Positions 30,232-46,922 of a stretch of 64,000 nt of DNA are shown one piece after another. The position numbers were made by a program, and so were the translations under genes. Numbering within the stretch: position 1 is the stretch's first letter; the number at the start of each line of letters is the position of its first letter. Origin of the DNA: Thalassospiraceae bacterium LMO-SO8 (GTDB taxonomy: Bacteria > Pseudomonadota > Alphaproteobacteria > Rhodospirillales > Casp-alpha2); the NCBI GenBank assembly GCA_031655335.1, contig CP134226.1, positions 3,406,001-3,470,000 on the forward strand, written 5' to 3'. A model generated the notes under the pieces. It was given only the letters and a program-made list of their open reading frames with translations. It was not told the origin of the DNA and did not search any database.

Positions 30232-31584
30232 CTAGTGTAGACGGCTCTGGCGGGCGCTGTCGATACGGGTGAGAAGCTGCGACTGGCTGCGCGGGTCCAT
30301 GCGGACGCGCAGATGGATGCCGGTTTCGCTGTCGGCCCGGTCCAGGACCTCGCCGTGTTCATAAATCCAGGCCAGGGTCGCGCCTTCGTCGAAGCCCAGG
30401 TCCAATTCCAATTCTCCGAGCTTGTCACCGAGCACGTCCTGGATGCGCTGGATCAGGGTGTCCAACCCCTGCCCGGTCACGGCGGAAATGGCGACCGGCG
30501 GGTTGTTGTCCTGGCGGGCGATGCGTTCCTCCAGGGCGCTGAGGGCTTCCGGCGTCAGCAGGTCGATCTTGTTGAGGGCCTCGGTGATCGGTGTCGCCGA
30601 GTCGTCGCCCAATCCCAGGCCGGACAGCACCTCCAGCACGTCGCGTCGCTGAATCTCCGTATCCGGGTCGGCGATGTCGCGCACGTGCAGGATCATGTCG
30701 GCCTCCACGACCTCTTCCAGGGTCGCGTGGAAGGCGTTGACCAATTGGTGCGGCAGGTCGGAAATGAACCCCACGGTGTCGGACAGGATGACCGGCCCAC
30801 CTTCCGGCAGGTCGAGTTTGCGCATGGTCGGGTCGAGGGTCGCGAACAACTGGTCGCGGGCGACCACGTCGGCGCCGGTCAGGCGGTTGAACAGGGTCGA
30901 CTTGCCGGCGTTGGTGTAGCCGACCAATGCGACCACCGGATAGGGAACGCGTTGGCGCGCGCGGCGTTGCAGGGAGCGCGTGCGCTTAACCTCGGCCAAT
31001 TCGCGCTTCAGCCGCGCGATGCGCTGGCGGATCATGCGCCGGTCGAGTTCGATCTGCCGCTCGCCGGGGCCGCCCATGAACCCCGCCCCGCCGCGCTGGC
31101 GTTCCAGGTGGGTCCAACTGCGGACCAGACGGCCCAACTGATAGCTGAGGGCGGCCAGATCGACCTGCAAGCGGCCTTCCTTGGTCCGCGCCCGGGCGCC
31201 GAAAATTTCCAGGATCAGGCCCGTGCGGTCGATGACCTTCGCTTCCCAGGCGGTTTCCAGGTTGCGCTGCTGAACCGGCGTCAGGTTGGCGTTGACGACG
31301 ACCAGTTCGCAATCCGGCAAGGCATGCAGGGTCTCGCCGATGCGCTCCACCGTGCCCTTGCCCAGAAGGGTCGAGGGCCGGGGCCGGGGCAGTTCGAACG
31401 TTTCGGCATGGACGACGTCCAGGTCGATGGCGCCGGCGAGCGCCACGGCCTCGTCCAGGCTGGCGCGCGCGCTACGGGTGTCGGCCCCGCCGGCCGCGGA
31501 CATGTTCGGATGGATGACGGCGCAGGAGCCCGCGCCCGCCGCCTTGGCGGCGGACGTGACATCACCTGGCGTTTGTTCGGTCAA
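30232..31584 (-). CDS. hflX: GTPase HflX
   Basis: Ribosome-associated GTPase of 450 residues that can split stalled or hibernating 70S ribosomes. The N-terminal HflX domain has [10 protein letters not shown]-like [15 protein letters not shown] and the glycine-rich linker [19 protein letters not shown]; the G domain has G1 [16 protein letters not shown] near 235, [14 protein letters not shown] and NKIDLL. The start is TTG, overlapping the hfq stop as TTGA, so translation is coupled to hfq. The hfq-hflX pair is conserved in proteobacteria. Confidence 0.94.
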
Positions 31585-31835
31585 CCCTCGACGGACTCGG
31601 CCGCATCCGGTTCGAACAATTGAACGGGAACGGACGGCATGACCGTCGAGATGGCGTGTTTATACACCAACTGCGTATGCCCGTCCCGGCGCAGGAGAAC
31701 GGAAAAATTGTCAAACCAGGTGACGATTCCCTGTAGCTTGACTCCGTTGACCAGAAACACCGTGACCGCAGTTTTGTTCTTCCTGATGTGGTTAAGAAAA
31801 ACGTCCTGCACGTTTTGTGATTTTTCTGACGACAT
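31581..31835 (-). CDS. hfq: RNA chaperone Hfq
   Basis: Sm-like hexameric RNA chaperone of 84 residues that pairs small RNAs with mRNAs. Sm1 motif: [20 protein letters not shown] then [18 protein letters not shown]; Sm2: [12 protein letters not shown], including the conserved YKHAIST. The acidic C-tail is short ([10 protein letters not shown]), typical of alphaproteobacteria. The ATG at 31835 follows a G-rich GGGGTGGGG site. A 140-bp gap upstream probably holds its own promoter. Relevant to the candidate small RNA at 46 kb. Confidence 0.96.
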
Positions 31836-45060: not shown

Positions 45061-45351
45061 ATGATGTCGCAAGGCCAGACGGAGATCAATGGACGCAGCC
45101 GGCGGGATGCCGGCGCGGGGACGCAGCCGACGGCCCAGCAGCGCAAATGGCTGCGGCGTGGCTTGAATCAGGCGGGCGGAAAGCTGCCGTTGTTTGATGA
45201 ACTCGGCCAGAAAGTCAGCGACCGCACGGTCAACGCCTGTATCGAACACGGTTGGGCCGAACCCTGGTTCAACAATCCTCTCAAGCCCGACTGGCAGGTC
45301 TGCAAACTGACCGACGCGGGCCGGCGCCTGCTGACGGGCGATGACGCCTGA
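45061..45351 (+). CDS. Small hypothetical protein, winged-helix-like
   Basis: A 96-residue protein. Residues 1-25 are polar and probably disordered; the rest (QQRKWLRRGLNQAGGKLPLF, then NACIEHGWAEPWF and CKLTDAGRRLLTG) looks like a MarR/winged-helix-type unit in which LTDAGRRLL is the classic last helix of such domains. AGCGGGAGG is found directly before the start, a good ribosome site. Divergent from cutA. Family not recognised with certainty. Confidence 0.6.
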   Translation: MMSQGQTEINGRSRRDAGAGTQPTAQQRKWLRRGLNQAGGKLPLFDELGQKVSDRTVNACIEHGWAEPWFNNPLKPDWQVCKLTDAGRRLLTGDDA

Positions 45352-45654
45352 GCCATGATCATGATGTGGTCGTCGCATTTCGCCATGGTTTCTCAAATCG
45401 ACACGCGTTCTGCGAAGAATAATTTTTCCCGGCACACGCCCTGGATGCGGCCGGGGGCTGGCCGTGCTATGGCGCGCACGGTCAATGTGTTGAATTATCA
45501 ATGAATTTTTTGGGAGGGGGCGGCAACCCAGTGAACCAGTGCTTGGGGGGAGGAGGAGAAAAGTTCCGGCCCACCGGGTTACCACTGAGGCAAAGTGCAG
45601 GTTCCATGCCAGTCCCAATCACCCCGTCTCATGCCGTGTTCGCCCGGTCTCCCC
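45352..45654. other. 303-bp non-coding region, partly foldable, upstream of the ferredoxin gene
   Basis: No gene is supported here. The left half is AT-richer around 45420-45435 and 45480-45510, including a short inverted repeat CGGCC/GGCCG near 45452-45470. The right half, 45512-45653, can fold as described in the next entry. No clear promoter hexamers, though TTGAATTATCAATGAATTTTTT lies just before the foldable part. Confidence 0.5.
45512..45653 (+). ncRNA. Candidate structured RNA or mRNA leader, family unidentified
   Basis: Nested complementarity closes a long hairpin: 45512-45516 with 45649-45653 (GGGAG/CTCCC), 45518-45522 with 45641-45645 (GGGCG/CGCCC), 45523-45525 with 45632-45634, and inside it 45533-45537 with 45600-45604 (GAACC/GGTTC) extended by 45540-45542 with 45597-45599. 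It ends one base before the ferredoxin ATG at 45655, so the closing stem would hide the translation start. It lacks the conserved cores of SRP, RNase P, cobalamin, TPP and glycine RNAs as far as I can tell by eye. GC-rich DNA can fold by chance. Confidence 0.3.
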
Positions 45655-46020
45655 ATGCCGCAGGATAATGTTTCCTCCACGCCGCCCGTACCGCCGCCCG
45701 CCGCCGGCTGGACCATCATGGTCTGCATCAACCGCCGCCTGCGCTCTGACCTGGCGTCCTGCGCCGCGCGAAACAGCGAGGACCTGGCCAAGGCCATCGA
45801 GGCGGAAGTGCGGGCCCGTGGCCTCGATATCCGGGTCGAGCGGACGGTGTGCATGGGGCGTTGCGACTTCGGGCCGACGGTGCGCGTGGCCCCCGGCGGC
45901 GCCTTTCATCTGGGGCTTGCGCCGGATGACGTCGGCGGGTTCCTGGATGACCTGGAATTGAAACTGGGCTTGAAAAAAGAAACAAATAAAATCAACGAGT
46001 TGCCGCCACCCGGTACGTGA
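45655..46020 (+). CDS. Thioredoxin-like (2Fe-2S) ferredoxin domain protein
   Basis: A 121-residue protein with the thioredoxin-like 2Fe-2S fold. Cluster ligands are the four Cys in TIMVCINRRLRSDLASCAAR (Cys-x11-Cys) and TVCMGRCDFGPTV (Cys-x3-Cys). Residues 1-15 are Pro-rich; the C-terminus is Lys-rich. The start is uncertain: ATG at 45655 has no GGAG, and an in-frame GTG at 45595 would add 20 residues lying inside the structured region. Related proteins occur near cobalamin and respiratory genes; role here unknown. Electron transfer or redox sensing is likely. Confidence 0.8.
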   Translation: MPQDNVSSTPPVPPPAAGWTIMVCINRRLRSDLASCAARNSEDLAKAIEAEVRARGLDIRVERTVCMGRCDFGPTVRVAPGGAFHLGLAPDDVGGFLDDLELKLGLKKETNKINELPPPGT

Positions 46021-46041
46021 CGAGGCAATTTTTCCCAAGAT

Positions 46042-46057
46042 TGTGATGACTATCACA
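46042..46057 (+). promoter_or_regulatory. Perfect CRP-type operator (TGTGA-N6-TCACA)
   Basis: TGTGATGACTATCACA is a full match to the CRP consensus, with 6-bp perfect arms (TGTGAT/ATCACA). The centre is 46049.5. A -10-like CATAGT (46079-46084) puts the start near 46091, exactly 41.5 nt from the centre, the class II activation geometry. A CRP/FNR-superfamily regulator is not in the window. Confidence 0.6.
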
Positions 46058-46090
46058 GCAAGGTCACAGGCCACCTGCCATAGTCAGGGT

Positions 46091-46172
46091 GTTGGATGGA
46101 TTTGTAATGAATCCTCCCTTCCCTCAAGAGCACAGACTGCGGGCCGGAACTTCGTGTTCCGGCCCTTTTTCT
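46091..46172 (+). ncRNA. Candidate small regulatory RNA with anti-Shine-Dalgarno stretch
   Basis: About 80 nt from the predicted start to a strong terminator, with no convincing frame inside (only a 3-codon ATG frame and one running through the terminator). A 5' hairpin (GGATT 46098-46102 with AATCC 46110-46114) is followed by an unpaired pyrimidine run CCTCCCTTCCCTC (46113-46125) complementary to ribosome-binding sites, then the terminator hairpin. This three-part plan is that of Hfq-dependent small RNAs in alphaproteobacteria. Existence is inferred from promoter, operator and terminator placement only. Confidence 0.5.
46141..46170 (+). terminator. Strong intrinsic terminator
   Basis: Stem 46141-46150 (GGGCCGGAAC) pairs perfectly with 46156-46165 (GTTCCGGCCC) around a 5-nt loop, followed by TTTTTCTTT. 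It could end the ferredoxin message as well, but that stop codon lies 120 nt upstream with an operator and -10 in between. Confidence 0.92.
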
Positions 46173-46280
46173 TTGCATCCCCGGCGGGACGGCCGAACAT
46201 TGAGTGCAGGGAAGCCTATCCCGCGCCGCCGCCTTTGCGGGCGACAGGGACATGAGTTCTGACTGTGCGGGAAAAAGTAA

Positions 46281-46357
46281 TGGTCGGAGCGGCGGGATTC
46301 GAACCCACGACCCCCACACCCCCAGTGTGGTGCGCTACCAGGCTGCGCTACGCTCCG
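46281..46357 (-). tRNA. tRNA-Pro(GGG)
   Basis: A 77-nt tRNA on the minus strand: acceptor CGGAGCG pairs with CGCTCCG, the anticodon loop CTGGGGG gives GGG, the T-arm is GGGTTCGAATCCC, and CCA is encoded at the 3' end. It lies downstream of the merR-like gene, a frequent position in this class. Confidence 0.97.
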
Positions 46358-46523
46358 ACTACTTTGTTGGCGCCGCGATCGTTTGCCTTGGGAGGGCTCG
46401 CGGCCACCGGCAGGTACACCGAGGCAAAACCCCGGTGACGTGCGGGCCGGACTATACTTGCTGCGTTGGGTGGGGGCAACAACCCTGGGCGGGTCCGGGC
46501 GATTTTTCTGAGAGGCCGAGGGT

Positions 46524-46922
46524 TTAGGTGAGAAGGGCCCGGATATCCTTCAATTCGGCCAGCACGGCGGCCAGTTGCGCCGCCTGCCCGTCGCTTTCCG
46601 GGGCGGATTTCGGGGCCGGCGCCGCAGGCATGTCCTGGCCCTCGCCGTCGTCGTCGGTGACGCCGTCCTTCAGCAGCTTCTGCACGCCCTTGATGGTGTA
46701 GCCGTCTTCGTACAGCCAGCGCCGGATGCGGTCGAGAAGCACGATGTCCTCAGGCCGGTAGTAACGACGGCCGCCGCCGCGCTTCATGGGTTTGATCTGG
46801 GGGAATTTGGTTTCCCAGAATCGCAGCACGTGTTGCGGCAGGTCGAGCTCGTCGGCGACTTCGCTGATCGTGCGGAACGCGCCCGCCGATTTCTTCACGG
46901 ACCTGGCGTCATCGGCAGGCAT
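46524..46922 (-). CDS. MerR-family transcriptional regulator
   Basis: A 132-residue DNA-binding protein. The MerR winged helix occupies about residues 14-82: [25 protein letters not shown], the [14 protein letters not shown] wing and [19 protein letters not shown]. No metal-binding Cys, and the effector part is short and Pro/Ala-rich. It is the small MerR protein regularly found after ihfA in alphaproteobacteria; its targets are not known. Starts 13 nt after ihfA. Confidence 0.9.

Follow-up and report, generated by a model that had tools for sequence, protein, structure and literature searches.

CyaR, a small RNA (sRNA) of the enterobacteria, is activated by CRP. In overall plan, the closest described RNAs are those of the alphaR8 family (MmgR and SisA-D), in which a hairpin described as weak is combined with the 10-mer UUUCCUCCCU and a terminator (PMC12559287). 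A related regulatory system is Clr, the cAMP/cGMP receptor of Sinorhizobium meliloti: its reported site-to-start distances range from -42 to -76 and have been compared to those of class I and class II promoters (PMC10127613). For Magnetospirillum gryphiswaldense, the excerpt that we cite names one Rfam sRNA, BjrC80 (PMC9549626).

Here, we analyze a locus in a 64-kb stretch of DNA (the whole stretch is called the window). The original prediction was that this locus encodes a CRP-activated sRNA with an exposed anti-Shine-Dalgarno stretch. From the sequences of the locus and its relatives, we consider it quite likely that it belongs to an order-wide family of trans-acting, base-pairing sRNAs that depend on Hfq and are activated by CRP from class II promoters. 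No description of this RNA was found in the open-access literature that we searched, and in that literature, the letters of its core appeared in animal or human-cell papers only.

The operator, the promoter, and the predicted transcript

A CRP-type operator TGTGA-N6-TCACA (TGTGATGACTATCACA) lies at 46042-46057 on the plus strand and is centered at 46049.5, or -41.5 relative to the predicted start near 46091. The operator, the hexamer CATAGT at 46079-46084, and the predicted start are all present as originally claimed. CATAGT is the end of an extended -10 box, TGC-CATAGT (46076-46084, plus strand). Upstream of the operator is an AT-rich tract (46027-46033, plus strand), which is possibly a contact site for alpha-CTD. 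The operator is the only perfect TGTGA-N6-TCACA site in the 64-kb window; if one mismatch is allowed, there are 3 sites, as compared to 0.57 expected, and 1 of 100 shuffles reached 3. A sigma-70 promoter scan of 45300-46600 did not list the promoter at 46079-46084, which it misses because there is no -35 box. Across the whole window, Rfam at its cut-off reported two tRNAs and nothing else.

The predicted sRNA is about 80 nt long (46091-46170, plus strand). It is supported by the match to our covariance model (R1, described below), which scores 86.4 bits at this locus, and by the predicted fold; the start was placed from the -10 box. The 82 nt from 46091 fold with -32.1 kcal/mol (z of -3.5). 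The 5' hairpin that had been proposed is present in the predicted fold, but it spans 46094-46117 (plus strand) instead of 46098-46114. Because CCTCC at 46113-46117 sits in the stem of this hairpin, as its 3' side, the exposed part begins at about 46118, from CTTCCCTCAAGAGC onward. The proposed seed is the exposed conserved core CUUCCCUCAAGAGC (46118-46131, plus strand), which has the lowest pairing probability in the RNA. It is followed by a Rho-independent terminator (46141-46170, plus strand) with a stem at 46141-46165 and then TTTTT, so the claim of a strong terminator with a T-run holds. Two other parts of the original prediction are also in place: the gene for Hfq, which had been put at 31.6 kb, is at 31584-31835 (minus strand), and the neighboring tRNA-Pro(GGG) is at 46281-46357 (minus strand). 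This tRNA is convergent with the RNA and outside it, and it serves as a marker of synteny.

Distribution and conservation

A DNA search with 45960-46280 gave matches in 32 of 61 genomes. R1 was built from 28 aligned copies and covers the transcript only, with no operator or promoter; it matched 33 of 48 genomes from the family, 122 of 317 genomes from the order (E of 0.01), and 8 of 385 genomes in a class-wide sample. The best matches in the order, with E values below 1e-6, come from 13 family codes. The other 195 of the 317 order genomes had no R1 match at E of 0.01: some of these are due to incomplete assemblies and our strict filters, and in others the RNA is truly absent. Some of the weak matches in the order are surely due to chance. 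We rejected L155 and L159 as members, as the core is absent and the similarity is terminator-like only; L030, a match from the DNA search, was rejected because it too has only terminator-like similarity.

Of the eight matches in the class-wide sample, one is our own genome and another (L105) is from the same order and has both the core and the operator. The other six each lack at least one of the two: in L106, the operator is elsewhere and the core is absent, while L107 has no operator, and its core and terminator sit where a coding region ends, on the 3' side. L107 (at 1501-1567) resembles L162 (at 473-550), where a core and terminator without an operator likewise mark a coding region's 3' end. 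These might be 3'-UTR-derived relatives; the protein ends at L162 and L107 look like those of flagellin and GlmS.

A pattern scan for the core only, in genomes of named species, gave 43 matches in 41 stretches. Their records are labeled as Rhodospirillales or Rhodospirillaceae (27), Magnetovibrio (3), Defluviicoccus (1, L091), Rhodobacterales (1), only Alphaproteobacteria or Proteobacteria (6), or as unrelated organisms (3). Magnetovibrio blakemorei MV-1 (L077) carries a match to the core. The operator is perfect for 33 of the 43 matches and has one mismatch for 5 more (38 of 43 with at most one mismatch). The other five are L079 and L080, whose stretches do not include upstream DNA, and L070, L099, and L101, which are the unrelated organisms (the records are for Thermoproteota, Planctomycetota, and Ruminococcaceae). 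Because the genomes overlap, the named set and the other order set are not independent.

We then compared the operators of 80 distinct copies, collected by a pattern for the core and core variants. They come from 60 regions high in the order list, from L001-L029, and from L102 (two of the 60 fetched regions, L161 and L169, repeat places that were already included). Within 50-110 nt 5' of the core, the operator is perfect in 55 copies and has one mismatch in 10, two in 6, and more in 9. Seven of these nine (L137, L142, L147, L149, L151, L153, and L156) have a perfect operator further 5', at 78.5-122.5 nt before the model match, and apparently have a longer transcript. In total, the operator is perfect in 62 of the 80 copies and has at most two mismatches in 78; the two exceptions are L024, whose site is correctly placed but degenerate, and L162, with no operator. 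A side observation concerns family code f4: in five of its copies (L137, L142, L147, L151, and L152), a perfect operator precedes the model match by 109.5-120.5 nt, and the 5' part seems to be about 70 nt longer.

Among the copies outside the 80, whose core differs or whose stretch is cut, are L163 (perfect operator), L128 (two mismatches), L125 (not enough DNA on the upstream side), and the divergent copy L160, with no operator within 320 nt. We found 11 off-place perfect operators in 261,066 bases of loci: nine are those of copies whose spacing is longer or whose core is divergent, and two are the RNA's own hairpin. Every perfect operator in these loci was linked to an RNA copy. Given this result and the sole perfect site in the window, we rejected the idea that the operator arose by chance. 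At the five loci with tandem double copies (L110, L111, L112, L117, and L131), each of the 10 copies has its own perfect operator.

In E. coli, an operator centered at -41.5 is the class II arrangement for CRP promoters. When 60 non-redundant promoters were aligned on the operator, the -10 positions stood at one fixed distance from it: position -11 is A and position -7 is T in 55 promoters each, position -14 is G in 45, position -12 is C in 38, and position -9 is A in 36. This alignment bears out the original claim that the operator is centered 41.5 nt from the predicted start. It has no separate -35 box, and it shows a preference for A/T at about -58 to -64. Thus, with +1 as inferred, the promoters have the class II layout of an operator centered at -41.5, a -10 box, and no -35 box.

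The pairing within the copies is also conserved. The original prediction took the exposed stretch to be an anti-Shine-Dalgarno sequence. An exposed conserved element does exist in the predicted folds, but in most copies it is UUCCCUCAAGAGC; CCUCC is paired, and it varies and is not retained across the whole order. An exact TTCCCTCAAGAGC occurs in 72 of the 80 copies, which were gathered by a pattern that allows core variants. The core is the least paired part of the RNA (mean pairing of 0.31 across the 80 copies, as compared to 0.66 and 0.58 for the other parts), and the 5' part folds better than its own mononucleotide shuffles (z < -1) in 93% of the copies. In an alignment of 83 distinct rows, which was fitted to the covariance model and therefore favors the pairing result, standard pairs fill 93.4% of cells, versus 76.0% when shuffled, and two-sided changes occur at all 14 of 14 pairs, versus 8.9 in shuffles. 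Sliding the partners in this alignment abolishes the signal. The sequence of the hairpin thus changes while its predicted pairing is kept. In the terminator helix, 96.0% of cells are paired and two-sided changes are present. Because the 5' part varies freely among relatives, we rejected the possibility that the RNA encodes a short peptide.

A lack of conservation of the operator and of a CCTCCC segment had been named as grounds for refuting the original prediction. The result was largely the opposite: the operator, the -10 spacing, the core, and the terminator are kept together across the order, while the hairpin sequence and the flanking genes vary; the CCTCCC segment is not kept throughout. 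The joint conservation of these four parts makes the CRP-activated sRNA of the original prediction a well-supported inference. More broadly, the RNA is a strongly predicted, and apparently an ancestral, target of CRP in the order.

The genes upstream of the RNA fall into two main clusters, with 12 loci in each, along with smaller clusters. One of the 12-locus clusters includes the loci from the genus, in which the upstream gene is, by position and size, the window's ORF 45595-46020. This ORF has no match in Pfam and weakly matches 2Fe-2S ferredoxins (29.9 bits, as compared to a cut-off of 195). Among the downstream genes, a cluster of 8 includes a 132-amino-acid gene that corresponds to the window's MerR gene by size and place.

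Candidate regulators and alternative readings

The genome has 12 matches above the cut-off for HTH_Crp_2, of which at least two (L190 and L191) look GntR-type by eye. L182 and L188 have the recognition helices RETVSR and RETVAR along with a PRSA motif; for the main Crp cluster, RE(T/M)VGR is reported at this place (PMC10127613). The best match for L182 in the PDB is E. coli CAP (1e-20). For L188, the top match is to a Toxoplasma protein but is limited to the cyclic-nucleotide-binding part, and CAP comes next (1e-16). The genome also encodes 8 class III cyclase domains. The candidates for the protein that would bind the promoter are among these Crp-family proteins.

The genome encodes several Crp/Fnr-family proteins, including L180 with a VETVSR helix, so we considered whether the promoter might be served by a regulator of the FNR/FixK type, which would respond to oxygen or NO, instead of by cyclic-nucleotide-bound CRP. 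The operator in the window also contains GTGAT-N4-ATCAC, as this reading would have it. However, the half-sites in the copies we read are of the CRP type (TGTGA/TCACA), and two proteins with RETVxR helices and the PRSA motif are present. Also, T is fixed at position 6 of the FNR consensus, whereas position 6 of the operator is C in 26 of the 60 promoters and T in 34. We therefore consider a regulator of the FNR/FixK type to be improbable. Another reading is that the RNA acts as a leader or attenuator for a gene downstream and is not a free RNA: it does end in a terminator, and the predicted ORF that comes next shares its strand at 32 of 70 loci. But at the other 38 loci, this ORF lies on the opposite strand, and the downstream genes belong to different clusters, which means that no single conserved gene has this RNA as its leader. 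Furthermore, the convergent tRNA-Pro(GGG) follows the RNA, on the opposite strand, at 24 of the 60 loci scanned, in several families. A leader or attenuator thus seems extremely unlikely.

The RNA might instead be a divergent member of alphaR8 (MmgR/SisA, the Rfam family suhB) that was brought under the control of CRP. It shares the plan of alphaR8, with a hairpin, an exposed, single-stranded, CU-rich stretch, and ACU before a strong Rho-independent terminator; the 8-mer TCCTCCCT is found in 21 of the 80 copies; and RF00519 has a sub-threshold match at the locus (26.4 bits; E of 0.0012, 0.0007, and 0.0042). However, this score is below the cut-off of 41 bits, and it is weak evidence of kinship because other sub-threshold sites in the same genome score 29.3, 28.7, and 26.4 bits. 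The alphaR8 10-mer occurs in 0 of the 80 copies, and none of 55 further loci reached the cut-off of any sRNA family. Also, a separate locus in the same genome, G000:C1:723609-723685 (L258), matches RF00519 above the cut-off, at 53.5 bits. Because RF00519 scores over its cut-off in 153 of the 317 order genomes, alphaR8 and the CRP-linked sRNA coexist. Overall, we think it rather unlikely that this RNA is a divergent alphaR8 and not a family of its own: it would work like an alphaR8 sRNA but is probably not a member, and it matches no named RNA family tested. Elsewhere in the same genome, we also noticed two sub-threshold alphaR8-like candidates with TCCTCCC elements (L259 and L261).

Proposed mechanism, targets, and known systems

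Our preferred reading, a CRP-activated and Hfq-dependent sRNA, builds on features that can be read in the genomes: the operator, the promoter geometry, the core, the pairing, the terminator, the neighborhood, the CRP-like proteins, the cyclase domains, and Hfq. Transcription, activation by CRP, binding of Hfq, repression, and the targets are the predicted parts of the model. As cyclic nucleotide rises, a CRP-type protein would bind at -41.5 and recruit RNA polymerase to the extended -10 box, giving the RNA of about 80 nt, which Hfq would stabilize. Single-stranded UUCCCUCAAGAGC, framed by the 5' hairpin and the terminator and extended by 5' C-rich bases in some families, would then pair, with Hfq, to purine-rich stretches at or just 5' of ribosome-binding sites. 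The paired mRNAs would be repressed when the cyclic-nucleotide signal is high. That the RNA blocks ribosome sites is a prediction.

Target prediction with the pyrimidine stretch, as originally suggested, led to one candidate site that is conserved in the genus, but the number of sites in the genus was not above the control. Specifically, the eight genus genomes contain 8 sites complementary to the core besides the sRNA copies, versus 9 for the reversed control. The 48 family genomes contain 19 sites versus 4, but purine-rich ribosome sites would yield the same excess. The best lead is TCTTTGAGGGAAGGGAGG in our own genome, 23 nt 5' of the GTG start of a gene of 159 amino acids (5' region at C1:2302555-2302572, minus strand), which adjoins a gene for an AMP-binding acyl-CoA synthetase. 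This site is kept in 6 of 6 orthologues from the genus (E < 1e-40), and 14 to 16 of its 18 bases are complementary, even though two of the six share only 50% protein identity. The region pairs with the RNA at -34.4 kcal/mol, which is lower than for 160 of 161 sampled starts (mean of -18.5 kcal/mol); the sampled starts are from a crude ORF rule, and the target segment was chosen separately. The one lower value, -49.0 kcal/mol, comes from an ORF that runs antisense to the sRNA. In 300 shuffles of the target segment, the mean was -18.2 and the lowest was -33.8 kcal/mol. The 159-amino-acid gene is confined to the genus (matches in 8 of the 48 family genomes, all g1), and its protein has no match in Pfam or NCBIfam. 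It lies at L224 998-1477 (minus strand), and we noticed that it has several distant relatives, with 6 matches in our own genome. The other leads are one gene common to two g7 genomes and coaX in one genome.

A second conserved hairpin RNA lies nearby, at 45522-45583 on the minus strand. It has an 18-bp hairpin and is present at seven loci in the genus (L001-L007), with an invariant C-rich stretch in its loop, UCUCCUCCUCCCCCCAAG. The minus strand is likely the RNA strand because all 126 of 126 cells pair on it, as compared to 73.8% on the plus strand. Three pairs have two-sided changes, and 2 of 500 shuffles reached the paired percentage. No terminator was seen by eye for this RNA, and Rfam gave no match to it up to an E of 5. 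Promoters for sigma54, which often reflect a nitrogen signal, have the pattern GG-N10-GC; directly 5' of the hairpin is a sequence that fits it, CTGGCATGGAACCTGCA (45596-45612, minus strand).

On the plus strand, the loop at 45538-45560, which is 5' of the ferredoxin-like gene at 45595-46020, pairs with the core of the sRNA at -29.4 to -30.7 kcal/mol in six loci from the genus, versus roughly -20 to -22 kcal/mol for shuffles. Among 8 loci from other genera, only L011 (-25.3) is clearly below its shuffles. The plus-strand loop is possibly a target or a sponge of the sRNA. In the genus, two unrelated predicted RNAs with similar C-rich elements ending in CAAG flank the ferredoxin-like gene. If the CRP-linked sRNA and the sigma54-like RNA act on the same purine-rich ribosome sites, they might form a two-input RNA switch for carbon and nitrogen, which we regard as unlikely; we found no description of such a switch in the open-access literature.

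If the model is correct, the order gains a strongly predicted CRP target that gives rise to a regulatory RNA, and the core of this RNA is almost unchanged across the 13 family codes with matches below 1e-6. This would provide a concrete route to the outputs of cyclic-nucleotide signaling in little-studied bacteria, including Magnetovibrio blakemorei MV-1. The family also offers a clean example of how a transcription-factor site and an exact promoter spacing are kept, over a great evolutionary distance, before an sRNA.

Like CyaR, which is known to be activated by CRP and to pair near ribosome sites, this sRNA is predicted to do both, but CyaR is from a different lineage and has a different core, and it has no match in the window at the Rfam cut-off. 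The sRNA also resembles the alphaR8 RNAs (MmgR of S. meliloti and SisA-D of Caulobacter crescentus) in having a hairpin, an exposed CU-rich stretch resembling an anti-Shine-Dalgarno sequence, and a terminator; alphaR8 is described as likewise having adjacent copies in some genomes and links to carbon physiology (PMC12559287). The two differ in that the sRNA conserves UUCCCUCAAGAGC and lacks the alphaR8 10-mer (80 of 80 copies). They also differ in their promoters: the sRNA has one conserved CRP promoter, whereas no common motif is reported upstream of SisA-D (PMC12559287). The text that we cite on the Clr regulon does not describe this sRNA (PMC10127613). According to that text, Clr is, like the regulator predicted here, an alphaproteobacterial CRP-type protein whose activated promoters have class I or class II distances, but its core motif is GTNNCNNNNGNNAC (PMC10127613), as compared to TGTGA-N6-TCACA for the operator of the sRNA.
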